From positions 1-43,423 of IMG/VR virus record IMGVR_UViG_3300021142_000061: 43,423 nt of DNA; one strand, written 5' to 3'. Numbering within the stretch: the stretch's first letter is position 1; every line of letters starts with the position of its first letter. This stretch comes from a virus. The position numbers were made by a program, and so were the translations under genes. Shown here piece after piece: positions 527 through 42,546 of this stretch. The notes below the pieces were generated by a model. That model was not told the DNA's origin. It did no database searches and worked only from the letters and a program-made list of their open reading frames with translations.

Positions 527-541
527 TGGAAACTCCACTAA

Positions 542-581: not shown

Positions 582-595
582 GGGGAAAATAGAGC

Positions 596-623
596 TTGAC
601 TTATCCACAGGTTATGATACTAT
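596..623 (+). promoter_or_regulatory. Sigma70-like promoter for the nucleotidase gene
   Basis: TTGACT (596-601), a 16-base gap, then TACTAT (618-623). The start point would be near 630, upstream of AGGGA (641-645) and the ATG at 656. It lies back to back with the minus-strand promoter, with the two -35 boxes 14 bases apart. Confidence 0.5.
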
Positions 624-655
624 TAGGTATCGGAAATAATAGGGATAAATATCAT

Positions 656-22237: not shown

Positions 22238-22239
22238 TT

Positions 22240-22272
22240 CTCGCCCCATCGTTCTCCATCAGTGAGGGCGAG
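22240..22272 (+). other. Hairpin after the MoxR gene
   Basis: CTCGCCC (22240-22246) pairs perfectly with GGGCGAG (22266-22272). It lies just upstream of the terminator and could protect the mRNA 3' end from exonucleases. Confidence 0.55.
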
Positions 22273-22274
22273 TT

Positions 22275-22309
22275 ATAGGGGGGGTGTTCGCAGCACTCCC
22301 CCTATTTTT
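22275..22309 (+). terminator. Rho-independent terminator after the MoxR gene
   Basis: A 12-bp stem, 22275-22286 pairing with 22294-22305, has one G-T pair, a core of five G-C pairs and a 7-base loop, followed by a T-run (22305-22309). It is immediately followed by the promoter of the next gene. Confidence 0.9.
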
Positions 22310-22312
22310 CTC

Positions 22313-22340
22313 TTGACAACCTATATAATTGTGGTATTAT
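22313..22340 (+). promoter_or_regulatory. Extended -10 sigma70 promoter for the VWA/HExxH gene
   Basis: TTGACA (22313-22318), 16-base gap, TATTAT (22335-22340) preceded by TGG. The leader AAGTTATA is shared with the other cassette promoters. Confidence 0.75.
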
Positions 22341-22367
22341 AAGTTATAAACATTGGAGAACATGATT

Positions 22368-27147: not shown

Positions 27148-28211
27148 AAATTCCATTTACAGATTTACAATCACAATATGCAGAGGCAAAGAGTAGCATT
27201 GATGCGGCGATTGCTCATACGATTGCTACCAATAGCTTTATCACTGGTCCCGATGTTATCAAGTTTGAAACTACCCTAGCCGATTACCTCGGTGTGCCAG
27301 CCGCTGCTAGCACTGGTAGCTGCACAACAGCCCTACAAGTTGCATTAAAGGCATGTGATGTTAGACCAGGCGATGATGTAATTACTACTAGCCACACGTT
27401 TGTAAGCACGGTTGAAGCTATTATAAATGTTGGTGCTGCACCCATAATGGTAGATACAGATGAATATTATCAACTTGATGCTGATGCTGTTGAAGAAGCT
27501 ATTACTCCACGCACAACTGCTATTCTTGCTATGGATGCATATGGACAAAGTTGCAATATTCATAAACTGCGTGAGATTGCAGATCGCAATGGATTAAAGT
27601 TAATCAATGATAGCGCACATAGTTTTGGCAGTGCGCTCATGAATGTAGCTGATCTTAATTGTTTTTCATTTAATCCTATTAAGAACTTTGGTGCAATGGG
27701 CGATGCAGGTGCTGTCGTAGGACGTGCTGATCTTATTGAACGTTGTAGAATGTTTCGTGATCACGGACGCAATACTAAGTTTGTATTTGAAGAAGTTGGT
27801 TATAATGCTCGCATTGATAATTTACAAGCCAACATTCTTCTTGCTAAACTTCCTTACTTAAAAGATTGGAATGAAGGTCGCAAGCGTGTTGCTGCTCGTT
27901 ATGATACTGCACTGGGTAATGTTGTTAAGATTCCAAAGAAATCTGGTTACAGTGATCATGTTTATTATGTATATGTCATTGAAGTTGAAGAACGTGATAA
28001 TCTTGCAGCATACTTAAAAGACTGTGGCATTGCAACTAATATTCATTATCCTATTCCATGTCATTTGCAACCAGCATTTCGCAAGTATCATGATTCATTG
28101 CCAAACTGCGAACGAGCAAGTAAGCGTATATTAAGTTTGCCTTGCTATCATACGCTAACAGAACAGCAACAAGATTATATCATCGACAAGATTTGGGAAT
28201 GGCGAGTATGA
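27144..28211 (+). CDS. DegT/DnrJ/EryC1/StrS-family sugar aminotransferase
   Basis: 355 aa. The N-terminus IPFTDLQSQYAEAKSSIDAA is typical. GSCTTALQVALKA binds the cofactor phosphate, and FNPIKNFGAMGDAG has the PLP lysine at about 180. NARIDNLQANILLAKL and NIHYPIPCHLQPAF are family blocks. These enzymes transaminate keto-sugars on nucleotide carriers, giving amino sugars for surface glycans. With the neighbouring epimerase and oxidoreductase it would build an amino sugar; the exact one is unknown. Confidence 0.92.
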   Translation: MKIPFTDLQSQYAEAKSSIDAAIAHTIATNSFITGPDVIKFETTLADYLGVPAAASTGSCTTALQVALKACDVRPGDDVITTSHTFVSTVEAIINVGAAPIMVDTDEYYQLDADAVEEAITPRTTAILAMDAYGQSCNIHKLREIADRNGLKLINDSAHSFGSALMNVADLNCFSFNPIKNFGAMGDAGAVVGRADLIERCRMFRDHGRNTKFVFEEVGYNARIDNLQANILLAKLPYLKDWNEGRKRVAARYDTALGNVVKIPKKSGYSDHVYYVYVIEVEERDNLAAYLKDCGIATNIHYPIPCHLQPAFRKYHDSLPNCERASKRILSLPCYHTLTEQQQDYIIDKIWEWRV

Positions 28212-29083
28212 AAATTTGGCTAGTAGGGTCGGGCTATTGGGGCAGCAAGATTGCAACTAAATTAGAAAATCTTCAAATAGATTATTCTATCATTGATATT
28301 AAAAATGGTCAAACGATTAGTGATATTGATACGCTTGATCCTGTTATGTTGGCAACGCCACTATGGGATCATTATGAACAAGCCCTAGAACTTATTCATC
28401 GTGGCAACGATCTTTATATTGAAAAACCAGCCGCTGAAAACTATGATCAGATTGTTAATTTAATCAAAGCAACCAAAGATAATATTGTGATGGTTGGTCA
28501 CATTTATATGTATAATCCAATCTTACATAAACTTAAAAATTTTATTGATGAAGGCAGATTTGGCGAAATTCAATTTGTTAACAGTGTTCGCACCAATCTT
28601 GGCATCTATCAAACCAAAACAACTCCACTGTTAAGTTTAGCACCACATGATTTTACAATTGTGGAATATCTCTTAGGTGATTTGCATATTCGTAACGCAC
28701 AAGGATTCAAATATAGTCCGCATAGTCCATATCCTGATCGTATATTAGTTAATGGAGTAAACTGGCATATCGATGTTAGCTGGCTTCATCCAGAACGCAA
28801 GCGTGAAGTTACTGTTATCGGTGACAAGGCACAAGCTATTTGGAATGATGATGCAAAAACGCTGCGTGTATATGAAAACAATATTGTAGGTGCCAAGCTT
28901 CACTTAAATGATCCAGATGAATGTTGGGATTATAGTGATCTTATAGACCCATTGGAAAATGAATTGCTGCACTTTATCAACTGCGTTGAAACTCGCACAA
29001 CACCAGATAGCGATCTAGCATATGCTAGAAAGATTGCAGACTATATTGATATTGCCCACTTCTTATTGGACATCACCATATAA
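28208..29083 (+). CDS. Gfo/Idh/MocA-family oxidoreductase
   Basis: 291 aa from the ATG at 28208, overlapping the aminotransferase stop by 4 bases; an earlier in-frame start lies deep in that gene. VGSGYWGSKIA (6-16) is the NAD site, LYIEKPAAEN (about 69-78) carries the EKP motif, and LAPHDFTIVEYLLGD has the conserved HD of the active site. In DegT clusters such enzymes oxidise the sugar C3 before transamination. Its last 21 bases overlap the end of the convergent glycosyltransferase-like gene. Confidence 0.88.
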   Translation: MKIWLVGSGYWGSKIATKLENLQIDYSIIDIKNGQTISDIDTLDPVMLATPLWDHYEQALELIHRGNDLYIEKPAAENYDQIVNLIKATKDNIVMVGHIYMYNPILHKLKNFIDEGRFGEIQFVNSVRTNLGIYQTKTTPLLSLAPHDFTIVEYLLGDLHIRNAQGFKYSPHSPYPDRILVNGVNWHIDVSWLHPERKREVTVIGDKAQAIWNDDAKTLRVYENNIVGAKLHLNDPDECWDYSDLIDPLENELLHFINCVETRTTPDSDLAYARKIADYIDIAHFLLDITI

Positions 29084-30817
29084 TTCAATAAAGTGATTGC
29101 GCAGCCATTCCCAACGGAATGTATTGCGGCGAAGTTCAGGCGTATCTATATTATCTTCATAATATTTTACGCCATCATTTGCGCCCTTTAATGCCCATTC
29201 AGCATAGTTGCCATTAGCTACCGTGCGCCAGATATGCAGTCGGTATTGGGTTTCAACATTTGGCATTGTATCGGTAAACTCTCGCAGCTTATGTGCCTCA
29301 CGAAATGCGGTGCGCCAAGTATGATATGGTGAAGCATCAAATGATCCATAGCAAGATACAATCGGCACAACTTCATGAGCAAAGCTTAGCGTATAATCTG
29401 TTCCAAACTCACCAAAGGGCGGAGCATTAATAACCATATCACGATTATACAACACAATTCCCATATGTCCATAACGCAAACCATTGACCGTGTTTTCGCT
29501 ATAAAAAATATAATGCTTTGGCTTCTGCCAATAATCAGAACCGATATCAAAATTAAATGTAGGATGAATTATGGTTTTGGCAAACACTGCATAAAAGTAT
29601 GGTGTTTCAGATGCAGTAGCCGCTGCTTTAAGAGCGTTCTCCATACCACTTACGCCATGCACTCGCTTAGCATGAGGAAACTTGTTTACTAGTTTATTCC
29701 AGTTTGCATCTGCTTCTGGCTCATCATATGATATAAAGATAATATCATTTAGTGCATCAAATCCATAATCTGGATAGCGCAACAAATGAGGATATTCATA
29801 TAATTCATCCTTTACAATGCAATCACGAGGAACAAGCGTGGTGCTATTATTCTTATTAATGCTTACTGCTGGTCGTTTATCCCATAAACAAACATCTGGA
29901 TAATCTGCAAATCCTGTATGCGAATACACTGTATAGATTGAACTTAATCTAGGCGTAGCATTAAGTTCTTGTGCCAAACTATCATGCGTTATCTTTTGTG
30001 ATGGCCATAGTTTTCTCTTTACAGGTTCGTGATTAAAGTTATAGGATGGATTCCAATCACCAAGATAACTTGGAACATGAATTAAAAATGTATCGCCTTT
30101 TTCACAAGTGCCACTTGGCCAGCAATGTATCTGGCGTTCTTCGCCTTCTTCTGGCAACCAATCAAAATCAAATTCATCATAGTTACATGTATCACTAACT
30201 ATCCATAACCATGGTTTGGTTGCTCGTTTAATAGCAGACTTTACCGCTTCTTCCATTGTCGTAACCAATCGAACTTTATAATCATGTTTAGGCAATGTAT
30301 GCGTGTTAGTGTCAATGCAGCAAATATCATAATAAGTGCCGCTATAAGTTAGATTAGCTGCATGATATTTTATGTTATTGCTGCCTCTGTCCAGTGTGGT
30401 ATAGCTTAGTCGTTCTTTACCAAGCATTGTAAATTCATGATTAAGTTGCCAGTCCCATACACTTGGAAACCAATTAAAATTAAAATTTGAATAATCTATA
30501 AGTGGGTCTTTTTTCCATTCCCACTTGCCAATAGCAGGATAAAGTATTGGCAATATATCCTTATGAAATAAGGTGTCGCCGTTATTTTCTATGGAAATCA
30601 ACCAAGTTGTAAAGCAATCTGGGTTATCATGACTAGCCCAAGCATGCATCATTTTGGCTTGATGGCGGTTAGGAAGATACCGCAAATTAAATTGAGAATA
30701 ATCTACTGCCAGATGACATAACCAAATATAATCAGTGCGACTAGTAGCAATAGCTTTGGCTATTAGTTCTTTAATATCATCGCAATCATCATAGTCATAC
30801 CAATAGATATCAAACAT
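29063..30817 (-). CDS. Large repeat protein, glycosyltransferase-like (last gene of the radical SAM operon)
   Basis: 584 aa. At least three related blocks start near residues 15, 186 and 390, with the pattern 'A.K.A...T...W.W.v' followed by F[ND][FL]..[LF]P and a downstream His-aromatic pair: FNLRYLPN, FNFNWFPS, FDFDWLPEE and a weaker FNFDIG. The third block starts IIFISYDEPEADANWNKLVN, closely like the glycosyltransferase-like protein at 39441 (IFLSYKEPNADANF). So it looks like a tandem array of one GT-A-like fold, some copies degenerate: the third lacks the acidic DxD, reading YAVFAKT. Such repeats occur in aquatic phage unknowns. Activity is not shown. Confidence 0.65.
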   Translation of the reverse strand: MFDIYWYDYDDCDDIKELIAKAIATSRTDYIWLCHLAVDYSQFNLRYLPNRHQAKMMHAWASHDNPDCFTTWLISIENNGDTLFHKDILPILYPAIGKWEWKKDPLIDYSNFNFNWFPSVWDWQLNHEFTMLGKERLSYTTLDRGSNNIKYHAANLTYSGTYYDICCIDTNTHTLPKHDYKVRLVTTMEEAVKSAIKRATKPWLWIVSDTCNYDEFDFDWLPEEGEERQIHCWPSGTCEKGDTFLIHVPSYLGDWNPSYNFNHEPVKRKLWPSQKITHDSLAQELNATPRLSSIYTVYSHTGFADYPDVCLWDKRPAVSINKNNSTTLVPRDCIVKDELYEYPHLLRYPDYGFDALNDIIFISYDEPEADANWNKLVNKFPHAKRVHGVSGMENALKAAATASETPYFYAVFAKTIIHPTFNFDIGSDYWQKPKHYIFYSENTVNGLRYGHMGIVLYNRDMVINAPPFGEFGTDYTLSFAHEVVPIVSCYGSFDASPYHTWRTAFREAHKLREFTDTMPNVETQYRLHIWRTVANGNYAEWALKGANDGVKYYEDNIDTPELRRNTFRWEWLRNHFIELYGDVQ

Positions 30818-31934
30818 TGTGGCTGTTGTAACCTGGCATCAAATAATTAATTTGGCGTTGTTCATAATCTTCATCTGCCCAACTATAATCATAAACTGCC
30901 TTAACGCCATCTATCTCAATGCTATAAATGTCTAGCTTGTCGCTCATCATATCCCAAATTTTATAAGGATCATGAGTTCCAAAACTACTTTCTAAATCAA
31001 CATGACCTAATTCAAGATATCCTAAACTTAAATTTACATTACTTGGATCATATCCTTCACGGCGTAACCAAGCGGTAAACGCATCTTGGTCTTTTGTATG
31101 CCAACTATGTTTGCCATAGATAACATCTCGCCCCCATTCAACATCAAATTCTCCACTATAATATTGAAGATGAGTAATAGCATCGCATGTTGCTTGGTCA
31201 AGTTGTGGAGCGCCTTCGTCACGAAATACTTCTATAAGTGTTTTGCCAATTTGTGTCCAATGCATATAAACGTGCGCAAACCTGCGGTCATATCCATTGA
31301 TAGCAAAACCCTCACGGTGTTCATTTTTTAAATTATAACGCCGTGCATTTAAAAATGTTGTAATTTGACTTGGACGAACCCAATCAGGAGCATAATGTTC
31401 TTTTCTAATGCTCAAGCACAATGTTTCAATCTCGTGACAAAGATTATTAATTTGCCTAATACTATATTTTACTTCTGGCGTAGCGAGTTTATAATATGGA
31501 CTAAGATTTTCGACAGTTCCTTGCAGATGTTCAAAATAATTATGAACAATATTCATAACATCATGATTTGGTCCACCGCCTCGCTTGCCATCTTCGTCTA
31601 TGCCAGTGATTGGAATCATAATATCATCAATTGTATAATTTGTTCGAATATCAAATGGTTCTAATCCAAATGATTGCCATACGCCTAATTCATTAAATGC
31701 CCAAATTCGAGAAGCATGCTTAGATAATTCCGATGCAAGATAATCAAGATTGCGTTGTGTCTTTGGCCAACCATGCCAACAATAATTTTTTTCCAGTTCG
31801 CTGTTCTTTTGTAATTCAATTTTAAGAGCAGCAACCCAATCACGTGCTAATTGATTGTCATTTGGTTTAATGTAATAGGTAAGCATATCACCTTTGCTTA
31901 CTGGATTTCTTAATGTTACTGCTATTTTACTCAT
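30810..31934 (-). CDS. Conserved hypothetical in the radical SAM operon, 374 aa
   Basis: No family recognised with confidence. Visible blocks are PNHDVMNIVHNYFEHLQG (about 120-137), INNLCHEIETLCLSIRKEH (about 163-181), NGYDRRFAHVYMHWTQIGKT and YLELGHVDLESSFGTHDPYK. Many His, Asp and Glu residues in conserved-looking helices could bind a metal, as in ferritin-like or Fe-dependent oxygenase folds, but I cannot confirm this. It has no signal peptide or membrane segment. It overlaps the radical SAM gene before it by 4 bases and the repeat protein after it by 8. Confidence 0.7.
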   Translation of the reverse strand: MSKIAVTLRNPVSKGDMLTYYIKPNDNQLARDWVAALKIELQKNSELEKNYCWHGWPKTQRNLDYLASELSKHASRIWAFNELGVWQSFGLEPFDIRTNYTIDDIMIPITGIDEDGKRGGGPNHDVMNIVHNYFEHLQGTVENLSPYYKLATPEVKYSIRQINNLCHEIETLCLSIRKEHYAPDWVRPSQITTFLNARRYNLKNEHREGFAINGYDRRFAHVYMHWTQIGKTLIEVFRDEGAPQLDQATCDAITHLQYYSGEFDVEWGRDVIYGKHSWHTKDQDAFTAWLRREGYDPSNVNLSLGYLELGHVDLESSFGTHDPYKIWDMMSDKLDIYSIEIDGVKAVYDYSWADEDYEQRQINYLMPGYNSHNV

Positions 31935-33223
31935 ATGTTATTCCACCAATCTAAGACATCGCCAGTCAAGATATCTTCCATTTTTATTTTAGCATCTTTG
32001 CGGATAGATTCCAATTTTAAAAGATGCGCCTTGCCACGAATTGCTTCACGCTTATAGGTTTGGGGAAACTGTTCTTCAAAAGTAGGACGAGTTTTAAGAT
32101 GTTCTAGCGTGTCCCATAAACTTTGTGTGCGACGAGTGATGAGTGGCTTGATGCGCTCCTGTATGCCCTCTAAAAGCGGTTCTAGCACCGTTCTAGGCAG
32201 CGCCAATGGACTGAGTAATATATCAGAAGAGAAGGCAAATACAACTTTACTCAACAGTTCTACATTTAGTTCATCGGATAAATTGATAATGCTCTCAAGG
32301 TCGAAAAGACCAGGTAAAGTAAGAGTAAAATCAATACGCATCTGTCTAGGGTGTTTTGAAGATTCAATCCCCCGTCGAAAGCTATTATACCACTCGCTAT
32401 AATTAAGGCCAGTCCTAACATATTCGCCTATTGCTCCTGTTCCATCTAAACTTGCACATATTTCCCAATGTGGAAAATGTTCAAGAAGTTCCCATAGGGT
32501 TCCTTCTTTATCCTGACAATAACTCAAGTTTGTATTATATCTTACACGAACTTGGTCTGCATAGTCAAGTTCTATTATACGGCGCATGAATGTCCAATGT
32601 TCGTCATAGAGTAACGGTTCGCCGCCTACCCAGTAAATTTCACGGACACTTTTATTTTCAATGGCTTGCTTGAACTCAGGTATAACTACATCACGTGTAA
32701 AATCACGAATAGCATGACGGTTTTTAGGTTGCATCCAATGATTTTTTGGGTTAGACAAATCAACCATATTGTTTTTACGAACTTCAACTTCCCATGCACT
32801 GCTTAACATATCGCCACACATACGACATTTGAAGTTGCATACATTGCTATAACGATAATCCCACGATATAGGTTCTAGGGTTGTGTAGCCATCGCTATCT
32901 GTATTAGCCACCGCAGCATCTCGTAAATGACCAAAAAGATGTCCAAAGTAATCACGATATACAGAAGTGTTAAGTAACTTTTTATCGCAGACCTCACATG
33001 CTGATGGAACCGTACCAGCCAACCATTGCTTTCTAATTTCTCTAATATGTTCGCCATTCCACCAATCCTTTAATGTGAGCGGCGTAAATTGTCCATCACC
33101 ACCAGCCGTGTCGATATACTGTTGAAAATTTTGGGCAGGTTCACGAGAAGCACAGCATAGGCGTCTTTCACCGACAGGAGAAATAAATGTGTGCGTAAAT
33201 GGAGCCAAGCAAAAATCATTCAT
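31931..33223 (-). CDS. Radical SAM enzyme 6 of the array (short 'CxxPF' type)
   Basis: 430 aa. The N-terminus has FCLAPFTHTF and RRLCCASRE (5-28), then VPSACEVCDKKLL (near 72), cysteine motifs that recall twitch/SPASM auxiliary-cluster domains moved to the front. The core motif CNFKCRMC has cysteines at 129, 133 and 136, and YWVGGEPLLYDEHW (near 195) is the SAM-binding GGEP segment. NTNLSYC and ASLDGTGAIGEYVR give the later strands. It is the same subfamily as the two genes upstream of it in the operon. The substrate is unknown. The overlap with its neighbours is 4 and 8 bases. Confidence 0.9.
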   Translation of the reverse strand: MNDFCLAPFTHTFISPVGERRLCCASREPAQNFQQYIDTAGGDGQFTPLTLKDWWNGEHIREIRKQWLAGTVPSACEVCDKKLLNTSVYRDYFGHLFGHLRDAAVANTDSDGYTTLEPISWDYRYSNVCNFKCRMCGDMLSSAWEVEVRKNNMVDLSNPKNHWMQPKNRHAIRDFTRDVVIPEFKQAIENKSVREIYWVGGEPLLYDEHWTFMRRIIELDYADQVRVRYNTNLSYCQDKEGTLWELLEHFPHWEICASLDGTGAIGEYVRTGLNYSEWYNSFRRGIESSKHPRQMRIDFTLTLPGLFDLESIINLSDELNVELLSKVVFAFSSDILLSPLALPRTVLEPLLEGIQERIKPLITRRTQSLWDTLEHLKTRPTFEEQFPQTYKREAIRGKAHLLKLESIRKDAKIKMEDILTGDVLDWWNNI

Positions 33224-34379
33224 AACCTATTGCCGCCGCTATCTCACTATGATGGTCACTGAACTTTTGATTACGTTGTAGGTCACTATTTTTTAATACT
33301 TGCACAAGTTTACTGCAATCGCTGCCTTCTCCTTGCATCATAAATTGTAATAGGTTTGCAACTTCATGCGCATATGGACCGCTATATTTTTCTAATTTGT
33401 CATAGATAAGTTTCTTTGCCGCATCATTCAAACGAGCAATACTAAAATGCCAAGCATCATGTAGCACATTAAAGTATACATAATCAAAACGTTGCTGTGC
33501 AATCCACTGGCACATTTCATCAATATAATAAAAATTTTGCACATTCGAAGTCATGCACAATTGTAATTTAATATTACGATTAGTATCTCGTAAATCATAA
33601 AAACGTTGTAGATTATCTATTGTTTTATTCCAGTTAGCGCCATAACGTTGATACTCAAATCGTGGACCAATATCATCTATTGATAACGCAATCTCAACCA
33701 ACTTAAAGTGTGGCCATAATTCTAAACCACGTTTTGGAAATGTAGTAAGATTTGTATTGTAATGAATTTCAATATCGCTTGCATATCCCATTTCAACTGC
33801 AATTTCTAACAGCGTAAAGTGTTCGTCAATTAAAAAAGGTTCGCCACCAGTAAATTCAAAATATTTTGTACTTGATAATAATTGGGTCAAATCTTCCCAG
33901 AATTTTTTTGACTCACGAGGCCACCGACCATTAACAAGATTATCTCTTGCACTTTGATTATTAGGATAGATATCAATTTCTTCTTGTGCCCACTTTGAAC
34001 TGCTAAAGCTGCCACAAATACGACATTTTAAATTACAAATGTTTCCAAGTTTTAAATCAAGAAACGTAAGACTTCCATCGCTGCTACTGGTAAATTTTTG
34101 GTCACCTATAATTTGTCGCAACCTAGCTATACTATGCATGCGTTTGCTAGTACGTCCACTATCTTCTTCTGCCCAACAACGATTACAGTTAGCAGGTTTT
34201 TCACCATTAAGAAAACTTTGGCGAAGATTATTCATATAAGAACTGTTAAATGCTTCGGTCAACGTATTTGTTTTTAAATCAATGTCAGGTATGGTTTCAT
34301 AACTTAAACAGCATACTTTGCATTTTCCCATTGGGTCTGCTTCAATGCTTACAAATGGCAATACACAAAAGTTATCCAT
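33216..34379 (-). CDS. Radical SAM enzyme 5 of the array (short 'CxxPF' type)
   Basis: 387 aa. FCVLPFVSIEADP and CKVCCLSYE lie in the first 26 residues, and CNRCWAEEDSGRTSKR near 60. The radical SAM cysteines are at 115, 119 and 122 (CNLKCRIC). FEFTGGEPFLIDEHF near 172 and YNTNLTTFPKRG follow, with LSIDDIGPRFEYQRYG as the next strand. The motifs align with enzymes 4 and 6, so the three are paralogues, but the sequences between motifs differ widely, so they probably have distinct targets. Its ends overlap both neighbours by 8 bases. Confidence 0.9.
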   Translation of the reverse strand: MDNFCVLPFVSIEADPMGKCKVCCLSYETIPDIDLKTNTLTEAFNSSYMNNLRQSFLNGEKPANCNRCWAEEDSGRTSKRMHSIARLRQIIGDQKFTSSSDGSLTFLDLKLGNICNLKCRICGSFSSSKWAQEEIDIYPNNQSARDNLVNGRWPRESKKFWEDLTQLLSSTKYFEFTGGEPFLIDEHFTLLEIAVEMGYASDIEIHYNTNLTTFPKRGLELWPHFKLVEIALSIDDIGPRFEYQRYGANWNKTIDNLQRFYDLRDTNRNIKLQLCMTSNVQNFYYIDEMCQWIAQQRFDYVYFNVLHDAWHFSIARLNDAAKKLIYDKLEKYSGPYAHEVANLLQFMMQGEGSDCSKLVQVLKNSDLQRNQKFSDHHSEIAAAIGYE

Positions 34380-35676
34380 GTAACATTCCTAATTCAGGAA
34401 CAATATCAAGCAATTTTTCACCACGAATTGTATCCATTTTATTTGTGCGATCCCAAAACTGTGGTATAAGATGTGACTTATCATCTGCCATCATAAAATT
34501 AATAGCACTTTCAAAACCAGTAGTTGCTCTTTTTAAACTATCTAATGGCGTTAGCCATTTGATATGCTCAAGATACATTTCTTGAATATCTACTTTGTAT
34601 TGAAATGGTAGAATATCAATTCTAAAAAATGGTGGGTCTTGTAAAATATTAACGTTCAAATCTTGTGGTTTTAAAAAACCTTTAGCAACCCAGTCACGAT
34701 GAAAACTTGGTAGTTGTAGTGCATTCATTACGCTTAATGTTGGACTGATATAAAAATCAACCTGTGGACATATACGCAGCATTTCTTCACGATTGCGCTC
34801 AGTTTGCGCCCAATCTGTTCCTTTGCGTACTAATTCTGCAAGTGGTCCCATCGCATCAAGACTTGCTCCTACACAAACATTTGTAAATTCATTCCAAAGT
34901 TCTAATACGTTTTGCTTTTTATAACGAAGTTCACTGAAATTAGTATTATATATAAGTCTTACATTATTCTTGCCTTTTTTTAGAAGAGCATTAAGAATAC
35001 GATAGTGTTCTTCCATAATGAGCGGCTCGCCGCCCGCAAAGTAGATATGTTCAACATAATCAAGATGCGGTTCAAGTTGCTCCCACACATCTAATTGAGT
35101 GCGACCAGCATACTCAACTCGTGCATTTCTTTTCTTAAATTGTTCAGAATTACCGCCATTTAATTTAATAAGTTTTAATTGATCATCATACCAATTTGAA
35201 CTAAAGATATGACCACAACTGCGGCAACGAAAGTTGCAGAGGTTTGAAAAGCGAATATCCCAATAAGATAAGGTAAGTTCTTCAAGATGACCGTTGGATT
35301 CAGTATTATCTACTCGACCAATGTGATGTCCAAATCGTTTATTGCTGCTATTGCGCATGCTAAAAAACCCAGCTTCTTCTTGCTCATAACATTTTTTACA
35401 AGCACCACATGGTTTTTCAGTTAGCATGTTTGTTCTAGTCTGACGCATAGCATCACTATTCCAAACTTCTTTAATTGTAGATTCTCGCAGATTACCTATT
35501 GAATGATCCATCTCAGCAGCACAACAAATATATGCTGGTCCTGTTGGAAATGCGTGTAAATGAGTCCAAGGCAACATACAAAATGTTTTGCTTTCCATCA
35601 GCAAAAACTTCTGTTGTTCATTAAGGTCTTCTAGTTTAATAAACTCAGGAGTACGCTCGTTATAATTATAACTCAT
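34372..35676 (-). CDS. Radical SAM enzyme 4 of the array (short 'CxxPW' type)
   Basis: 434 aa. A 30-residue extension precedes FCMLPWTHLHAFPTG (about 32-46) and YICCAAEMD. CGACKKCYEQEEAGF lies near 93. The radical SAM cysteines are at 147, 151 and 154 (CNFRCRSC), then IYFAGGEPLIMEEHY near 215, YNTNFSELRYKK and ASLDAMGPLAELVRKG. It has the same architecture as enzymes 5 and 6. I recognise the type as the 'twitch' radical SAM proteins of aquatic phages, whose reactions are not known to me. Confidence 0.9.
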   Translation of the reverse strand: MSYNYNERTPEFIKLEDLNEQQKFLLMESKTFCMLPWTHLHAFPTGPAYICCAAEMDHSIGNLRESTIKEVWNSDAMRQTRTNMLTEKPCGACKKCYEQEEAGFFSMRNSSNKRFGHHIGRVDNTESNGHLEELTLSYWDIRFSNLCNFRCRSCGHIFSSNWYDDQLKLIKLNGGNSEQFKKRNARVEYAGRTQLDVWEQLEPHLDYVEHIYFAGGEPLIMEEHYRILNALLKKGKNNVRLIYNTNFSELRYKKQNVLELWNEFTNVCVGASLDAMGPLAELVRKGTDWAQTERNREEMLRICPQVDFYISPTLSVMNALQLPSFHRDWVAKGFLKPQDLNVNILQDPPFFRIDILPFQYKVDIQEMYLEHIKWLTPLDSLKRATTGFESAINFMMADDKSHLIPQFWDRTNKMDTIRGEKLLDIVPELGMLHG

Positions 35677-37024
35677 TATACCATTCTACCAATTCTGGAA
35701 AAGTTTTACGAAAATCTTTATTGCGACGTTGATCATATTGTTCATAAAAAGTTTTAAAATCTTTTTGCAAAACATCCATTGAACTAGCGCCCGCATGAGG
35801 AGATTCAACACTATTTAAGTATTCAATCAAACGCTTAATATGTTCTATCTCCATTTGGTGAAGCCAGTTGCTCTCACCCCAACGTTCAAGAAACTGCTGT
35901 AAACGTTGCCTACAACTTTGCTTAATGCTATCTGGCATAACCAATGGACTTTGAAAACTTGGAAAACGTAAGATGTTTAACGTAACAGTTAAACTATCAC
36001 GTCCATAGGCTTGTTTAAAATCAATCATATGTTCTAAGAAATCAGGAAGTTTAGGCAAGCAAACTCCATTAATTGTTGCCATAACATGCAGTTGGTTAAC
36101 TGCGCCACTTTTGTATAATTTAACCATATTATCAAACCATTGATAATAATTTAAACCATCACGAATATATTCTGCTTGACCATTCATGCTTTCGCAACTA
36201 GTATAGAGTTCAACATCCAAGCCTTTAACTGCGTCGATAAACTCATCAAGTTTTTTTGATTCTAAACCAAGATTAGAATTGATTGCTAGTTTTGTTTGGC
36301 TCTTGCCTACATTTTCTTTAAACCAATCTAATAATTTCCATGTATGACCACTCATAAGTGGTTCACCGCCAGTAATGCGAAGTTCCCGAAGAGTTTTATG
36401 TAAATCGGTTTCCCACCATTTAAAGAAAGCATCTACATATGGATTTGTATCGGTATAACCGTAGAGTTGGCTGCTGTCGTGAGCATGTGTAAAATGATTG
36501 CGCCCATCGCTATCCAACCCGCTATACGAGCCATTAGACTTAATATCTCGAACCCAAGTTGTGCTAAAAGCAGGATTACAATAAGAACAGGCAAAATTAC
36601 AAGTGCGGTCAAAGGCTATCTCCAATGTGCGAAGATTTACATCGCTATCCGATGGAAGAACAAAAGCATCATGCAATTCTTCTTCACTGTATATCATACT
36701 TTTATATGGACGATCACTTATAGCAGTTGAACTACTATCTTCAATTCGCCAACAATATTCACAACCAGTGGGTCTTTCACCACGTTGCATTTGCGCACGC
36801 TGTTCTTTTTTTTGCGGTGTATTGTGCAATGCCGATGGATTAGCTAATACTTGTTCCACAGTTACTTGATGTGGAAGTGGATGGTGGCAACTTGTTGTTT
36901 GGCCGCTACCTAACCAAATAGTTGCATTATACCACTTTGCACCACAGAATGATGCACTTTTGGTATCCAGAACACGTTTTTTATATTTTAAAAATGATTC
37001 ATCTGGTTGTTTGCTTGTTACCAC
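35666..37024 (-). CDS. Radical SAM enzyme 3 of the array (long 'CxAKW' type)
   Basis: 452 aa. The N-terminus has FCGAKWYNATIWL and TTSCHHPLPHQ (about 26-51), then GCEYCWRIEDSS near 98. The radical SAM cysteines are at 142, 146 and 149 (CNFACSYC), followed by NPAFSTTWVRDIK. LRITGGEPLMSGHTW lies near 217. The C-terminus ends YDQRRNKDFRKTFPELVEWY. All these blocks recur in enzyme 1 (38039) and in the solitary plus-strand enzyme at 4400, so this subfamily is duplicated across the genome. The conserved DxRR...FP end may be a docking element (inference). Confidence 0.9.
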   Translation of the reverse strand: MVTSKQPDESFLKYKKRVLDTKSASFCGAKWYNATIWLGSGQTTSCHHPLPHQVTVEQVLANPSALHNTPQKKEQRAQMQRGERPTGCEYCWRIEDSSSTAISDRPYKSMIYSEEELHDAFVLPSDSDVNLRTLEIAFDRTCNFACSYCNPAFSTTWVRDIKSNGSYSGLDSDGRNHFTHAHDSSQLYGYTDTNPYVDAFFKWWETDLHKTLRELRITGGEPLMSGHTWKLLDWFKENVGKSQTKLAINSNLGLESKKLDEFIDAVKGLDVELYTSCESMNGQAEYIRDGLNYYQWFDNMVKLYKSGAVNQLHVMATINGVCLPKLPDFLEHMIDFKQAYGRDSLTVTLNILRFPSFQSPLVMPDSIKQSCRQRLQQFLERWGESNWLHQMEIEHIKRLIEYLNSVESPHAGASSMDVLQKDFKTFYEQYDQRRNKDFRKTFPELVEWYNEL

Positions 37025-38046
37025 GATGTTGCGTATCCTTTATTAAAATTTTGTGAACAGCATTTATTTTTACATTCATCGTAATTGTTTAAACTATTAA
37101 AAAAATCGTCCCACATTTCATCTTTTAATATATCACCAATATTTCTTGTATTCAAATTATATTGTGGTTGTCGAAACTCTTGCCAACGAGTGTGATTATA
37201 CCTATTTGCCATCCAACAACAAGGATAGAAATAGCCGTCACTGCTTATATAAAGACCCTTGTTACCAATTTTACATAATGGAATAATATCGCTGTCACGA
37301 TTAATATTAGTATATAAATCTGTATTAATTAAATTTTTACCGTTATCTAATAATTTTCTATTAGTGAGATTTATTATTTGACGTTCAAAACGATGTCCTT
37401 TTGCAATATATTGTTGAGCGGGTTCTAAATCATCACTGCCTTCAATATTATAATTAGAGTATTTGCTACCAAATTTAGTGCTGTATGTAATTTGAAATAT
37501 ATCAAAATTCCATTTAGTAGCTAAATCCTTCATCGTCATAATATCATATTGATTATATTTAAAAACAATAGCAGCCCAAGTGAGGATAACATTACTATTT
37601 TCTCTGACAGTTTTAACGGCAGTTTTAATACTATCCCAGTTACTATTGATGCGATATTTTTCATTGCTTTGTTGATCCCATCCATCTAAACTAAAATGGA
37701 TTTCATCATATTGATTTAAATTTGCTGCAAGTTTTTTCCACCATGCTTCGTTACGATAACTGCCGTTTGTAATAATACGAAGACTTAAATTAGGTTTAGT
37801 AATTTTAAGATATTCAATTATTTCTAAAAATTCTTTACCGTAAATTGGATCACCATCATCGCCACAGAAACTAATTTGCCAAACCTCTTGCAAAAAGCCA
37901 GGGTTAAAATTTTTTTTAAAAAAATCTAAACTTAGACTTGTTTGGACTAAAGTATCGGGTATTTCCACACGTGGACAGCGTGGGCATCGCAAACTACATA
38001 TACTGCTATTTTCAATATGCCAATGCCAAATAGGAAATTTATACAT
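37018..38046 (-). CDS. Radical SAM enzyme 2 of the array, SPASM-like C-terminus and altered GGEP motif
   Basis: 342 aa from the ATG at 38046, which overlaps the upstream gene by 8 bases like the other junctions. It differs from its neighbours. The radical SAM motif is at the very N-terminus (CSLRCPRC, cysteines 17, 21, 24). The SAM segment reads SFCGDDGDPIYGKEF near 57, with GDDGDP in place of GGEP. The extra cysteines are C-terminal: PLCKIGNKGLYISSDGYFYP followed by CCW near 279, and NYDECKNKCCSQNF near 322, a SPASM/twitch-like arrangement. This is the layout of peptide-modifying enzymes such as sactisynthases and anSMEs. The protein lacks the N-terminal cysteine domain of the others. Confidence 0.9.
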   Translation of the reverse strand: MYKFPIWHWHIENSSICSLRCPRCPRVEIPDTLVQTSLSLDFFKKNFNPGFLQEVWQISFCGDDGDPIYGKEFLEIIEYLKITKPNLSLRIITNGSYRNEAWWKKLAANLNQYDEIHFSLDGWDQQSNEKYRINSNWDSIKTAVKTVRENSNVILTWAAIVFKYNQYDIMTMKDLATKWNFDIFQITYSTKFGSKYSNYNIEGSDDLEPAQQYIAKGHRFERQIINLTNRKLLDNGKNLINTDLYTNINRDSDIIPLCKIGNKGLYISSDGYFYPCCWMANRYNHTRWQEFRQPQYNLNTRNIGDILKDEMWDDFFNSLNNYDECKNKCCSQNFNKGYATSW

Positions 38047-39475
38047 TATCAGCCCACCATTTACATTCATTATACCATTCAATCATTTCTGGATATGTTT
38101 CGATAAAGTTAGTTTTACGACGAGCATCATGTTCATTAAAGAAACGATAGAAATCTGCCATTGTTTTAGTATCTTCACGACGATGTTCGTGCATCCAATC
38201 TACTACACGCTGTAGTTTTACAACTTCATAATCTTTGAATCCATTAAATCGTGTATCTAGTGTTTCAGTTTTTGGTTGCATCCAGTGCACGACATTTTGT
38301 AAAAACCATGCATAACTTTCAGGTAGTATATCAATACATTGCCAAGCTGGTTCACGCAAGATAGGTGTATCAAACCAAACACGCTGATATGTTGTGCTAT
38401 ATTTTGCACGAAGTTCAAGTATCCATTGCATCAATTCTTTGAGGCTTGTTATATTGAGAACATTCATTGTAATAATAAATGTAACGCTATTGCGACTAGG
38501 AACTTCAGTTAAAAACCGTTCTACATTCCTTTTCATGAGTTCAAAATCTAAACCATGACGACCATATTCACCACGCTCACCGTAACCATCAATACTAACA
38601 AATTGCATAAAGTGTTCTAATACACCATTTCCACACATGTGTTTTACATAAGTCAAATACTTGTCAAACACATATTCATCTTGGCTAAAGTTGCTTGTGA
38701 CGTTAAGATGCAAATCTTTTTTAGGATTATCCAAAACATAATCAAATACACGATAGGTATTTTTATCTAATAGCGGTTCTCCGCCTGTCATGCGAAAATG
38801 TTTTAGGTTTGGGTAGAGTTCGGGCCACCATCGCCAGAACGCATCAACATAAGGATTATCTTCCCGATTCGGTATAGGTTTACGATCACCCCCAAAATAA
38901 GAAGGACTATTATGGCTATTAGAAGTAGGATAAGCACCGTATTCATTAATTTCCTTTTGCCAGGCACTGCTAAACTGCGGTGAACAATAGCTGCACTGTA
39001 GATTGCATACATTGCTAAAATTTACTTCTACATAAGCAGGATTAACATTCCAAGTAGTAGGGTCGCAAGCAATAATTGTATCGTAATGCTCGGCAGCCCA
39101 TGCTTCACCACTTCGGTAGTGGCGGTCACTAAGGTTTCCTGTTGCTTCAACTCGCCAGCAATAACTGCATTCTTCTGGACGTTCGCCGCGTAGCATCTTC
39201 TGCCTTTGCGCCTTTTTGTATTCAGTGTTGTGTAGCGCACTGGGGTTATCGGTGAGATCATCGGCATTAATCCTGTGTAGTGGTGGGTGATAGCAACTAT
39301 TTGTATGACCAGTTGTTAAATGTAAACTGGTTTGCTGCCACTTTGCAAGGCAAAGAGCATGTCCAAGTTTCTGTTGCATTTGCTCAGCAGCCGATAAAAA
39401 ATCACTTTTAAGAGTTTTATCACTGTTTACTGTGGCAACATCACCAGAGTTGTCTAGCCGCGCTTCTAATGACAT
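38039..39475 (-). CDS. Radical SAM enzyme 1 of the array (long 'CxAKW' type)
   Basis: 478 aa. After an N-terminal extension come ALCLAKWQQTSLHLTTG and NSCYHPPLHR (about 40-69) and ECSYCWRVEATG near 116. The radical SAM cysteines are at 157, 161 and 164 (CNLQCSYC), followed by SPQFSSAWQKEIN. FRMTGGEPLLDKNTY lies near 232. The end has HDARRKTNFIETYPEMIEWY. It pairs with enzyme 3 and the 4400 enzyme. Its first 35 bases overlap the end of the glycosyltransferase-like gene at 39441, the longest overlap next to a radical SAM gene. Confidence 0.9.
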   Translation of the reverse strand: MSLEARLDNSGDVATVNSDKTLKSDFLSAAEQMQQKLGHALCLAKWQQTSLHLTTGHTNSCYHPPLHRINADDLTDNPSALHNTEYKKAQRQKMLRGERPEECSYCWRVEATGNLSDRHYRSGEAWAAEHYDTIIACDPTTWNVNPAYVEVNFSNVCNLQCSYCSPQFSSAWQKEINEYGAYPTSNSHNSPSYFGGDRKPIPNREDNPYVDAFWRWWPELYPNLKHFRMTGGEPLLDKNTYRVFDYVLDNPKKDLHLNVTSNFSQDEYVFDKYLTYVKHMCGNGVLEHFMQFVSIDGYGERGEYGRHGLDFELMKRNVERFLTEVPSRNSVTFIITMNVLNITSLKELMQWILELRAKYSTTYQRVWFDTPILREPAWQCIDILPESYAWFLQNVVHWMQPKTETLDTRFNGFKDYEVVKLQRVVDWMHEHRREDTKTMADFYRFFNEHDARRKTNFIETYPEMIEWYNECKWWADNV

Positions 39476-40379
39476 TTCCTACATCTCTTTCTGGTAGCAT
39501 GATATCAATGTTTTGGTATGCTCTTTGATGCTTTTTATACCAAGAACTTTGTTCAGGCGACATGCTAATTATATCAAGATTTAGACGTTTACGCAATATA
39601 TTTGCATAATTTTCGCTTCTTTGTAATCCATCATCCGTTGTATATTGCCACAAATTATCAAGTTTTTTAAAATCACGAACTTCACGATAATCCCAATCAT
39701 CAACAAACATAGTCATATGCGCACCTTGTCTAGCACCCATTATTGCCCATTTGCCAAACTCAACATCCGCACCAACTGTTGCCCAAATAACAAGGTTTGC
39801 ACGATTGCCGTGCCAAGTAGCAGATTCAAATTCTTCTGGTGATGGGCGGCGACCACGATCAAGGCATAATTTAACACCTTCACGAAATCCAGCTTGCCAT
39901 GCTTGTTGCGGCGATGAATTAGGCAGCGTAGTGCTCCATACATCATGCATTGCCCAATAATTATTGTCAAAGCAAAATTCAACAGCAGTATGATCGCTGC
40001 CATCAGTTGCTTCATGAGTTCGCATATTGTTAGCAAAAGTTTTAGTCCAACTACTAATTCCGCCATTGCCATAGCAAAGACCATTAATGATATTACGTGC
40101 TCTCCAACGAAATACACAACTATCATTAAGATGATTAATGCGAAGCTGTTGATTAAAAAACTCTGGATCGGGTTGGTTATCAGCATCTATAAGAATAAAA
40201 CGTTCTGTTTCACTAGCAGCAGCCGCTGCTTTGTGTGCAGCATCACTGCCCTCTATACCATCAACACGCTTTGCCCAAGGTGCAAACGAACGCAAATATG
40301 CAAAGTTAGCATCTGCATTTGGTTCTTTGTAACTTAAAAAGATACAATCCAGTTCACTAATATCAATTAACTCAGGCAT
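39441..40379 (-). CDS. Glycosyltransferase-like protein with DADN motif
   Basis: 312 aa from the ATG at 40379, chosen because AAGGA lies upstream and the overlap with the previous gene becomes 8 bases. DCIFLSYKEPNADANFAYLR (from about 10) is followed by AHKAAAAASETERFILIDADNQPDPEFF, where DADN has the DxD form that binds a metal and NDP-sugar in GT-A enzymes. Later blocks are NGLCYGNGGISSWTK and EFCFDNNYWAMH. It is related to the last gene of the operon (29063). It may glycosylate a virion or surface target; acceptor and sugar are unknown. Confidence 0.72.
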   Translation of the reverse strand: MPELIDISELDCIFLSYKEPNADANFAYLRSFAPWAKRVDGIEGSDAAHKAAAAASETERFILIDADNQPDPEFFNQQLRINHLNDSCVFRWRARNIINGLCYGNGGISSWTKTFANNMRTHEATDGSDHTAVEFCFDNNYWAMHDVWSTTLPNSSPQQAWQAGFREGVKLCLDRGRRPSPEEFESATWHGNRANLVIWATVGADVEFGKWAIMGARQGAHMTMFVDDWDYREVRDFKKLDNLWQYTTDDGLQRSENYANILRKRLNLDIISMSPEQSSWYKKHQRAYQNIDIMLPERDVGNVIRSAARQLW

Positions 40380-40608
40380 ATTTCCATCCTTGCACATTTG
40401 GATAACCAGTTTTTACAGGGAACTGATAATCATCATGCAGCGTATAATAATCTGTGCCGCCTTTTACCAATATATTTTGTGTTGGTATTTTAGGTTGGAG
40501 CATAATTGGTTTTGGAGGTGGATTAGGATCGTTTGGCTTAACTTGTTTGGCAAGTTCTCGTTCAAACTCAGCCCACCAATCCTTGATTTTTTCTTCTTCG
40601 GTATTCAT
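40372..40608 (-). CDS. Small protein of the radical SAM operon, possible modification substrate (78 aa)
   Basis: I chose the ATG at 40608 because MNTEEEKIKDWWAEFERELA at the start matches the beginning of the first operon gene (42170: MNTEELRDAARVAYDRELA). A Pro-rich middle (NDPNPPPKPIMLQP) follows, then ILVKGG and a Tyr/aromatic-rich tail of 29 residues (TDYYTLHDDYQFPVKTGY and onward to KYA). A helical leader, a GG and a short aromatic tail is the outline of a ribosomal peptide precursor, but this could also be an ordinary conserved small protein. It is the smallest gene in the operon and overlaps both neighbours (41 and 8 bases). Confidence 0.6.
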   Translation of the reverse strand: MNTEEEKIKDWWAEFERELAKQVKPNDPNPPPKPIMLQPKIPTQNILVKGGTDYYTLHDDYQFPVKTGYPNVQGWKYA

Positions 40609-41425
40609 GTGAGTATCTATCCAATAATTCATCTGTTGCGAAGGTTTTCTCTACATAATGCAGCGGTCTTGTTTGTTTGTAATGTCCAATCGTTGGGATA
40701 AAATCAGGTTGAATATCCCAATGCAATTGTTCTTGCCAAGGTTGTTTGCTTGGACAATGTTGCAATTCAGATTTCATATGCACGAATCCAAATCCAGTAT
40801 CACGTGGTTTTTTATCTAATATCTTTAATGCAAGGGCATATACTTCATCGGTGCGTGGTTCATCATAACGGCAATTGACGAGATAATTGTCACGATAATA
40901 ATCCCAATCATCTATGATAAAACGCATGATATCATATATTTCTTTACATGCGGTATCATATGTAAAGTAAGTCCATGCACTATAAATGTTTGGCATTAAA
41001 TTTTCATCAAATTGCTGACGATATTTGCGATTATCAATTGCATGTCCATCATAGGTATAAACACTTTGTGTAAAACTATATGTAAATGGAGCATATGTAT
41101 TCCATAACCAACTTAAATCTGTTGTGAATAACATATCACATTCTGTTTTAATTGTGCTTTTATATGGGCTATACGCAAATACTTGACATTCATTTTGCAT
41201 CTTAATCTTGCTGTTTTGTGCAAGGTCATGTTTTAGCACGATAACTTTATCAAATACAGCACGATGTGCATCAGTTACACATTCAGCGGTTTCTTTATCT
41301 ACAATAACACTGAAATTATTATCCAAGATTTGCGTAAGTTTGCAACTTAGTGCTTGAAGATATGCCATTTTAAGATAATCTATATCACCGCTATTCTGTG
41401 CAATACAAAGATAACCGCTGCTCAT
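40568..41425 (-). CDS. Glycosyltransferase-like protein (GT-A type, phage family)
   Basis: 285 aa. YLCIAQNSGDIDYLKMAYLQ at the N-terminus, a Rossmann-like strand FSVIVDKETAE, then FAYSPYKSTIKTECDMLFTT (about 83-102) with ECDM as the DxD-like segment. TYFTYDTACKEIYDIM and a late His near FGFVHMKSELQH follow. The order matches phage proteins I know as putative glycosyltransferases of the GT8/GT32 type. It shares one base with the upstream gene (TAATG). The acceptor is unknown. Confidence 0.72.
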   Translation of the reverse strand: MSSGYLCIAQNSGDIDYLKMAYLQALSCKLTQILDNNFSVIVDKETAECVTDAHRAVFDKVIVLKHDLAQNSKIKMQNECQVFAYSPYKSTIKTECDMLFTTDLSWLWNTYAPFTYSFTQSVYTYDGHAIDNRKYRQQFDENLMPNIYSAWTYFTYDTACKEIYDIMRFIIDDWDYYRDNYLVNCRYDEPRTDEVYALALKILDKKPRDTGFGFVHMKSELQHCPSKQPWQEQLHWDIQPDFIPTIGHYKQTRPLHYVEKTFATDELLDRYSHEYRRRKNQGLVG

Positions 41426-42186
41426 TAAAATTGATCCTTATTCATAAGATGCAAATCTATATTTTTAATACTATTTGCATAAACTTTATCGGTTATATAA
41501 CGATATACAAGTTTATCATCTTCAAATCTATCATAATCTATTTTAGAATCGCAATTGACAAGTGGATAATTCTTAAAACTATAATCCTTCATACCATATC
41601 CACCCATAAGATGAAGTGCTACTGAGAATATAAAATCATTGCGGATTGGAACACGTCGATATTCATAGAGTATGCTATAATATTCATAATGTTCTTGAAC
41701 ATGTTTAGCCATTTCAAATATACGATGGCTTTCGTTGCATTTATTAAAAATGCAAACCGTTGCCCAATACATGTCAATCCTTGTATTGCCAAGTTTAAAT
41801 GATTCTAGCTTATGATTAGTTAAATTATAAACTTGCTTGGTCATTATAAAATCAACATTGCTGTTTAAGTGTGGCAAGAGATTAGAGGTGCAGATAAAAT
41901 AATCACCATCTATGATTAAAGTTCTATCATATGGACTCAAGTCATATAGTTTTGTGCGGATAAGATTGCGCCAAGTGGTATCATCACTTCGCCAGTTATT
42001 GCCAGGTTTTTCAACAACAATTCGTTTATGCGGTCCAATATTACCATCCGTTCTATCAGTTACGATAGTAACAGGGATGTTCAAGTGTTTAGCAACACGG
42101 TCAGCCGCTATCATTGCCATATCAAAATAGATATAGTTCTCATTATCAAATGCAGCAATAAGGCAACCTTTAGAGTTGTTTTGCAT
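41425..42186 (-). CDS. Glycosyltransferase-like protein with DGD motif
   Basis: 253 aa from the ATG at 42186; an upstream TTG lies inside the previous gene. KGCLIAAFDNENYIYFDMAM, then IPVTIVTDRTDG, WRNLIRTKLYDLSPYDRTLI and IDGDYFICTSNLL (about 100-112), in which DGD is the likely metal/NDP-sugar motif. The family resemblance is to the 41425-upstream GT-A type of phage glycosyltransferases, parallel to the next gene. Probably cytoplasmic. Confidence 0.72.
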   Translation of the reverse strand: MQNNSKGCLIAAFDNENYIYFDMAMIAADRVAKHLNIPVTIVTDRTDGNIGPHKRIVVEKPGNNWRSDDTTWRNLIRTKLYDLSPYDRTLIIDGDYFICTSNLLPHLNSNVDFIMTKQVYNLTNHKLESFKLGNTRIDMYWATVCIFNKCNESHRIFEMAKHVQEHYEYYSILYEYRRVPIRNDFIFSVALHLMGGYGMKDYSFKNYPLVNCDSKIDYDRFEDDKLVYRYITDKVYANSIKNIDLHLMNKDQF

Positions 42187-42511
42187 TACGAATTTTTGTA
42201 AACTCTTCGTATTCTGCGGCAAACTCGTTCATGACTTCCCACCAACGGCGCTGACAAATATATAACAGTTCATGCGGAATAACCTTAACTGGAACATCAT
42301 AGGCATCCATCATATAGATTACACCATCCCAATCTTTCCAATTTGGTCCAAACCATGAATGTAAAAAAGCAATAAGTTCTTGGGTTACAATAAACATACC
42401 GCCACCATAATTCACGGTCATTCGTGATTCAATGGCAGTGTTGATGTTTTGTTTTGCCAGTTCACGGTCATACGCTACTCTGGCTGCATCACGCAATTCT
42501 TCTGTATTCAT
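42170..42511 (-). CDS. Hypothetical 113-aa protein, first gene of the radical SAM operon
   Basis: The ATG at 42511 lies 6 bases after the -10 box, so the transcript is probably leaderless. The protein has MNTEELRDAARVAYDRELAK at the start, VNYGGGMFIVTQELIAFLHS (about 34-53), then VIYMMDAYDVPVKVIPHELL and WWEVMNEFAAEYEEFTKIRN. To my recollection this family often accompanies glycosyltransferase-like genes in aquatic phages, but its function is unknown. Its N-terminal block recurs in the 40372 gene. Confidence 0.72.
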   Translation of the reverse strand: MNTEELRDAARVAYDRELAKQNINTAIESRMTVNYGGGMFIVTQELIAFLHSWFGPNWKDWDGVIYMMDAYDVPVKVIPHELLYICQRRWWEVMNEFAAEYEEFTKIRNAKQL

Positions 42512-42517
42512 AAGAGA

Positions 42518-42546
42518 ATTATAACAGATTAGTTAATTGTTGTCAA
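42518..42546 (-). promoter_or_regulatory. Consensus sigma70 promoter of the 13-gene radical SAM operon
   Basis: Read on the minus strand: TTGACA (42546-42541), 17-base gap, TATAAT (42523-42518) preceded by TGT. It is a perfect match to both hexamers. The ATG follows after 6 bases with no ribosome site. The -35 box is 2 bases from the stop of the tail gene. Confidence 0.88.

Follow-up and report, generated by a model that had tools for sequence, protein, structure and literature searches.

A co-inherited cassette of five N-twitch radical SAM enzymes and glycosyltransferase-like proteins beside the tail-fibre genes of uncultivated jumbo phages

The window analysed here is a 43,423-base virus record (IMG/VR IMGVR_UViG_3300021142_000061, positions 1-43,423) with a minus-strand cassette in which five radical S-adenosylmethionine (SAM) enzymes of the N-twitch family are combined with glycosyltransferase (GT)-like proteins and a conserved partner, g2. 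This cassette is syntenic and co-inherited and is probably one functional unit, and its carriers are uncultivated viral contigs of up to 343 kb. In the reading that we favour, with a probability of about 45%, it encodes a soluble pathway that builds a glycan and tailors it by radical chemistry, most likely on a tail-fibre protein.

An earlier reading made from the letters alone (the sequence-only reading) had described six adjacent CxxxCxxC genes (31931-39475, minus strand), divided into CxAKW, CxxPF/W and SPASM-like types, in a 13-gene overlapping operon (29063-42511) behind a consensus sigma-70 promoter and accompanied by four GT-like proteins, and all these features were recovered. The 13 minus-strand genes overlap successively by 1-65 nucleotides (nt). 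Each of the six proteins, rS1-rS6, has one CxxxCxxC motif and matches Pfam Radical_SAM (E 2.5e-5 to 3e-9), with rS1 and rS3 in the CxAKW subfamily, rS4-rS6 in the CxxPF/W subfamily and the SPASM C-terminus in rS2. The promoter, TTGACA-17-TATAAT, matches the consensus at 12/12 positions, and the GT-like genes form two homologous pairs, g10/g1 and g11/g12, with a GT-A fold for g10 and a weak GT8 match for g11. The features are as follows, in the direction of transcription of the cassette.

42548..43423, minus strand: c7, fibre-like Ser/Thr-rich structural protein, truncated by the window edge; candidate acceptor (alignment A8)
42518..42546, minus strand: promoter TTGACA-17-TATAAT of sigma-70 type, its -10 box ending 6 nt before the g13 ATG
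42170..42511, minus strand: g13, opening gene of the cassette, function unknown, usually 101-113 amino acids (aa)
41425..42222, minus strand: g12, putative GT8-like glycosyltransferase by homology to g11; invariant D105xD107
40568..41425, minus strand: g11, putative GT8-like glycosyltransferase by its weak profile match to glycogenin
40372..40632, minus strand: gX, small fast-evolving protein encoded between g11 and g10; perhaps an acceptor or an accessory protein
39441..40397, minus strand: g10, GT-A-fold enzyme; invariant D71xD73 (alignment A2, AlphaFold model, Foldseek, VIA)
38039..39475, minus strand: rS1, N-twitch radical SAM, CxAKW subfamily; NF033640 346 bits
37018..38082, minus strand: rS2, radical SAM/SPASM (Pfam Radical_SAM and SPASM), optional insertion; true start probably internal
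35666..37024, minus strand: rS3, N-twitch radical SAM, CxAKW subfamily; NF033640 302 bits
34372..35676, minus strand: rS4, N-twitch radical SAM, CxxPW; NF033640 390 bits
33216..34379, minus strand: rS5, N-twitch radical SAM, CxxPF; NF033640 340 bits
31931..33223, minus strand: rS6, N-twitch radical SAM, CxxPF; NF033640 268 bits
30810..31934, minus strand: g2, possible cyclophilin-like barrel with a large helical insert (alignment A1, AlphaFold model, VIA)
29063..30817, minus strand: g1, GT-A-like, C-terminal part homologous to g10
26272..29083, plus strand: NAD-epimerase, DegT aminotransferase and Gfo/Idh/MocA genes (Pfam), convergent to the cassette; likely sugar-precursor supply

The conservation of the cassette was assessed in three sets of loci. 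A search with rS4 recovered 46 related loci, 34 of them non-redundant and used for gene-order counts, while searches anchored on g2 and g10 gave at least 554 and at least 589 confirmed stretches, respectively, the best 80 of each being counted; some contigs are common to the anchored sets and the first 34-locus set. The consensus order over the 34 loci is c11 (fibre), c7 (fibre-like), g13, g12, g11, gX, g10, rS1, rS3, rS4, rS5, rS6 and g2, followed by either g1 or c10, a carbamoyltransferase (Pfam 5e-48) that occurs in 20/34 loci. The order of rS5/rS6 or g2/rS6 is exchanged in a few loci, and extra genes, including additional radical SAM genes, are inserted at times. Presence in this set is 30/34 for c7, 28/34 for g13 and 25/34 for gX. 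Among the best 80 g2 loci, N-twitch radical SAM genes occur in 80/80 and rS6 lies immediately upstream of g2 in 76/80; among the best 80 g10 loci, g11 and g12 are found in 80/80, c7 in 78/80, g13 in 77/80, N-twitch radical SAM genes in 76/80 and gX in 71/80. The sequence-only reading had proposed a joint pathway, and this agrees with partners that are fixed rather than scattered (34/34 loci, 80/80 g2 loci and 76/80 g10 loci) and with cysteines 97-100% conserved in the homologues. Its view that six copies are retained needs correction, given that five are constant and the SPASM gene rS2 is optional, being present in only 6/34 loci.

Among cultured phages, no copy of the cassette turned up in the 50,697 GenBank phage records searched with rS1, rS3, rS4, g10, g2, gX, c7 and g13, which gave only distant radical SAM matches in Vibrio phages K566/K567. 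With rS2, distant matches were obtained in Campylobacter and Pelagibacter phages; gX, c7 and g13 had no match in cultured phages. The nearest cluster in a named phage is that of Vibrio phage K566 (L053, 13506-20502), with three radical SAM genes, a GT8 gene and a GT4-like gene. Also, five loci filed under metagenome-assembled genomes of Betaproteobacteria, Verrucomicrobia, Pelagibacter, Flavobacterium and Rickettsiales (L054-L058) hold a whole or partial phage cassette and look misbinned.

The five constant enzymes, rS1, rS3, rS4, rS5 and rS6, score 268-390 bits against NF033640 (N_Twi_rSAM), above its curated cut-off of 170 bits; rS2 has no NF033640 match and carries a C-terminal SPASM domain instead. 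Both CxxxCxxC and GGEP are invariant in the radical SAM alignment (A3). When conservation was scored over 34-35 relatives per radical SAM group, the three SAM-cluster cysteines and four N-terminal cysteines proved to be 97-100% conserved in each of the five N-twitch groups, the key cysteines reaching 97% in rS3 and 100% in rS4, rS5 and rS6, and C42, C61, C103, C106, C157, C161, C164 and C471 of rS1 all being 100% conserved. Profile comparison aligned the N-terminal region with the C-terminal auxiliary (twitch) domain of BtrN, cysteine on cysteine (E 3e-4), suggesting a relocation of the twitch domain from a C-terminal to an N-terminal position. Each of the five enzymes is predicted from these motifs to hold a SAM cluster and one N-terminal auxiliary (twitch) cluster; no N-terminal twitch enzyme was found in the literature searched. 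A seventh NF033640 member stands alone at 4400-5638 on the plus strand (204 bits), distant from the cassette. Members of this family number 12-19 in three of four relatives of 320-343 kb.

Ratios of nonsynonymous to synonymous substitution (dN/dS) of the radical SAM genes against close relatives are 0.07-0.18, which together with the conserved cysteines rules out chance or decayed open reading frames (ORFs). The phylogenetic tree resolves five groups, except for the divergent locus L044 and some extra copies, with Bdellovibrionota relatives near each group; a single contig of Bacteriovoracaceae UBA6144 carries members near all five, beside obgE, rpmA and rplU (named from their sequences). Also, pairwise distances of nine cassette families correlate at 0.34-0.89, with 0/300 permutations as high. 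The five-clade tree and the correlated distances indicate an old set of five distinct enzymes and not recent duplicates. Recent tandem duplication of the six genes is ruled out, their pairwise identity being about 30% or less and bacterial members lying between the five old clades. In one locus (L034, 9941-12514) rS4 and rS5 are fused in a single reading frame of 857 aa. In Elusimicrobia bin-0981, many contigs (L069 and others within L064-L086) carry close N-twitch paralogues arranged in tandem, as many as six on one contig.

The partner genes may point to the handling of sugars. The AlphaFold model of g10 (pLDDT 88.6) has a GT-A fold, for which both Foldseek and VIA returned glycosyl- and nucleotidyltransferases, and g10 is accordingly modelled as a putative glycosyltransferase of a fold that is common to nucleotidyltransferases too. 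The C-terminal part of g1 shares 31.6% identity with g10 over 225 aa (E 6e-21). The g11 profile matches glycogenin (GT8) weakly (E 9e-4), and g12 is homologous to g11 (hhalign 99.5%); direct searches of Pfam and PDB gave no match for g12, its GT8 likeness coming solely via g11. The amidinotransferase, of the AGAT/SxtG/StrB1 type, is found in 11/34 loci, and an aminotransferase and an epimerase adjoin the cassette in 14-15/34; in the window, the convergent DegT aminotransferase, epimerase and Gfo/Idh/MocA oxidoreductase were identified by Pfam. A sulfotransferase-like gene in L019 and SGNH-hydrolase-like genes (c16) were named by motif alone, without Pfam confirmation. A hydropathy scan of the core cassette proteins revealed no clear membrane segment. 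The fibre families are rich in serine and threonine (28% in c7 and 22% in c11, against about 11%), and the c12 profile had no match among solved structures. In L001, a GIY-YIG homing-endonuclease-like ORF (282-833, plus strand; named by motif) lies between g11 and g10, at the usual position of gX.

The remaining constant partner, g2, has no known relative by sequence searches or Foldseek. Its AlphaFold model has a pLDDT of 91.7, and its invariant residues are H131, E135, N163, C166, H167, E168, E170, E235 and D239, most of them within the helical insert. In VIA, cyclophilins occupy the majority of the top 22 rows and rank ahead of the next folds, with Z of 7-8.7 over 132-149 residues, values that are possible without kinship.

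Promoters were scored as the sigma-70 match out of 12 (TTGACA/TATAAT) and counted at 9/12 or better. In the first set, 21/27 g13 genes are preceded by such a match whose -10 box lies precisely 6 nt upstream of an in-frame ATG; no other large gene family at the same loci shows this arrangement. In the g10-anchored set 55/71 g13 genes reach the 9/12 threshold, 41 of them at a spacing of 5-7 and a second mode lying at 22-27 nt, against 100/892 control genes, five of them at a spacing of 5-7. At a spacing of 6 the A of the g13 ATG would coincide with the predicted +1, giving a leaderless transcript. About a dozen loci also have a strong terminator-type hairpin between c7 and the g13 promoter. The conserved promoter and the hairpin after c7 suggest that the cassette is its own transcription unit under a host-type promoter, and yet it is linked to fibre genes. 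Similar elements precede two other plus-strand genes of the window, TTGACA-17-TATATT-6-ATG an exonuclease gene at 17369 and TAGACA-17-TATATT-6-ATG an unknown gene at 8583; sharing the 6-nt spacing, they are perhaps members of a phage-wide class of leaderless promoters. The window has 3 copies of the phage T4-type late promoter TATAAATA where 6 would be expected, hence no enrichment, and Rfam and tRNA scans gave no matches.

How these components might work together can be outlined as follows. The convergent epimerase, DegT aminotransferase and oxidoreductase would supply an amino or otherwise modified sugar, which the GT8-like pair g12/g11 and the GT-A enzyme g10 (and g1) would transfer. The five non-redundant radical SAM enzymes could then carry out successive C-H activation on the sugars, for instance dehydrogenation, epimerisation or deoxygenation, and the product may be finished by a carbamoyltransferase, an amidinotransferase or an esterase-like protein in many relatives. 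The acceptor would be soluble, most likely the tail-fibre proteins encoded directly upstream. We infer the sugar as substrate, the fibre as acceptor and the order of the steps. This outline draws on the constant GT-like genes and the frequent sugar-tailoring genes, on the likeness of the auxiliary domain to that of BtrN, on the lack of membrane proteins and on the linkage of the unit to fibres rich in Ser/Thr. BtrN is a sugar-alcohol (aminocyclitol) dehydrogenase; the genes upstream of the cassette encode a tail fibre, a fibre-like protein and a giant virion structural protein; and a GT8 gene lies among the radical SAM genes of Vibrio phage K566. Since the cassette proteins have no clear membrane segment, they offer no flippase/polymerase route, which suits a cytosolic acceptor. 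The sequence-only reading had leaned towards peptide modification; the BtrN-like domain and the GT, carbamoyl-, amidino- and DegT aminotransferase and epimerase partners would point at least as much to sugar as to peptide. Three constant sugar-transferase-like genes and five radical enzyme genes behind fibre genes thus probably denote an unusual sugar decoration, of a chemistry unseen in any studied virus.

Several observations weigh against a glycan on the fibre, and some of them favour a direct action of the radical SAM enzymes on residues of c11, c7, gX or g13 (cross-links, epimers or oxidations), with the GTs decorating the same protein; this is the main rival reading, which we consider somewhat unlikely. 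Twitch/SPASM enzymes act on peptides too, and SkfB, a peptide maturase of this type, matches the profile, as do viperin and Tes; g2 may resemble cyclophilins, which bind peptides; and gX and g13 are constant small genes of the unit. Moreover, no characterised member of the N-twitch family came to light, and Bdellovibrionota carry the five clades with no g10, g11, g12 or g2 homologue nearby. Bacterial neighbours are scattered, GT2 being the commonest non-radical-SAM family and yet reaching just 5/147, and the host-type promoter is separate from the fibre genes, so that the cassette may not be expressed together with late virion proteins. Residue modification meets difficulties of its own, however. 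No leader-core pattern is evident in gX and g13, and gX is undetected in some loci; c7 and c11 contain almost no cysteine (0.4% and 0.2%), which rules out thioether chemistry on these proteins but leaves room for other changes; and the frequent carbamoyl-, amidino- and aminotransferases are atypical of loci for ribosomally synthesised and post-translationally modified peptides.

The promoter, distinct from the fibre genes and of identical architecture to that before the exonuclease gene at 17369, would also suit a cassette that remodels host lipopolysaccharide or capsule early in infection, excluding other phages for example, and host O-chain modification has been proposed for the GTs of the pelagimyophage host-recognition cluster (PMC7029224). 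We regard this as unlikely, as the unit has no membrane protein, no flippase or polymerase was recognised in it, and its linkage to virion fibre genes is near-constant. The same constant linkage, and the fact that neither a transporter nor a resistance gene was seen in the unit, make it highly unlikely that the product is a diffusible small molecule (aminoglycoside-like or a modified nucleoside) directed at the host or rival phages, even though the mix of radical SAM enzymes, GTs and amidino-, amino- and carbamoyltransferases recalls that of aminocyclitol antibiotic clusters. Phages are known to glycosylate and hypermodify pyrimidines, and the window encodes a thymidylate synthase homologue (Pfam). 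This homologue keeps the dUMP-type PFN motif, however, no thymidylate-synthase-family gene was detected in three cassette-bearing relatives of 320-343 kb (records possibly incomplete), and the ADDT and HMUDK_hel families were not found in a search without positive control; hypermodification of phage DNA bases by the cassette is therefore a very remote prospect.

Relatedness of the carriers was assessed through the window DNA polymerase. It shares 99% identity with the polymerase of contig G012, 68-85% with the polymerases of four contigs of 320-343 kb and 44-48% with its nearest cultured counterparts, from the jumbo phages Phosso, Atu_ph07 and PBECO4. In three of the four large contigs the cassette is preceded by a giant protein, then by a conserved 200-aa protein and tail-fibre genes; in contig G001 this giant protein has homologues among the virion structural proteins of Rak2/Atu_ph07-like phages. 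Elsewhere in the window (21110-23633, plus strand), a MoxR-like AAA ATPase adjoins a DUF2201 metallopeptidase/VWA protein, and together they look like a co-chaperone pair.

For a virus, five oxygen-sensitive radical enzymes that bear additional clusters are an expensive set to maintain, yet they are kept in order under purifying selection in many uncultivated phage contigs. If decoration of the fibre holds true, phages would have a radical-chemistry route to shape their receptor-binding surface, with a bearing on adsorption and recognition. A bolder extension, which we put forward tentatively and on the doubtful side, is that a five-step radical pathway in hundreds of uncultivated jumbo phages, and partly in Bdellovibrionota, places an unprecedented glycan (or residue modification) on receptor-binding fibres, a virion decoration unknown in viruses. 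With its constant genes, the cassette offers a well-delimited set to express and to study by mass spectrometry, through which the N-twitch radical SAM family could receive its first function.

Compared with known systems, the cassette shares its enzyme family with the NF033640 entry, to which rS1, rS3, rS4, rS5, rS6 and the gene at 4400 belong; that entry names single proteins, whereas the cassette consists of five distinct clades in a fixed set co-inherited with GTs and g2. BtrN, the twitch radical SAM dehydrogenase of butirosin biosynthesis, has likewise one auxiliary-cluster domain with cysteines aligned to those of the cassette enzymes, but its twitch domain is C-terminal and theirs is N-terminal. 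Jumbo phages of the Rak2/PBECO4/Atu_ph07 type have the nearest cultured DNA polymerases and the giant virion protein, and the cassette was not found there.

Multi-gene radical SAM modules are already known from phages, and the statement of the sequence-only reading that no such phage pathway had been described was too strong. Campylobacter phages CP220 and CPt10 carry an exchangeable block of five radical SAM genes and an amidinotransferase, with 11-12 radical SAM genes in all (PMC2853527), and a T4-like marine genome has 12 (PMC5332604). Two nucleotide-diphospho-sugar transferase-like genes lie beside the radical SAM genes of CP220, which is matched by rS2 alone (28% identity) and not by the N-twitch genes rS1, rS3 and rS4; the CP220/CPt10 clusters are interchangeable and little related in sequence (PMC2853527), in contrast to the fixed order of the present cassette. 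Pelagimyophages have radical SAM cassettes within their host-recognition cluster (PMC7029224), and there and in Pelagibacter phage Mosig genes of the same types as here (radical SAM, GT, aminotransferase, carbamoyltransferase and epimerase) lie among tail fibres. The pelagimyophage cluster is described as non-syntenic and hypervariable, whereas the present cassette is syntenic across many contigs. In none of these three studies (PMC2853527, PMC5332604, PMC7029224) was a radical SAM gene function assigned by experiment. The cassette is thus a very widespread new form of such modules. As far as the literature was searched, its novelty lies in the fixed set and order of its genes, in five N-twitch clades that are old and inherited together, in how widely it is spread among uncultivated jumbo phages, in its partners g2 and g10 and in the conservation of its promoter.

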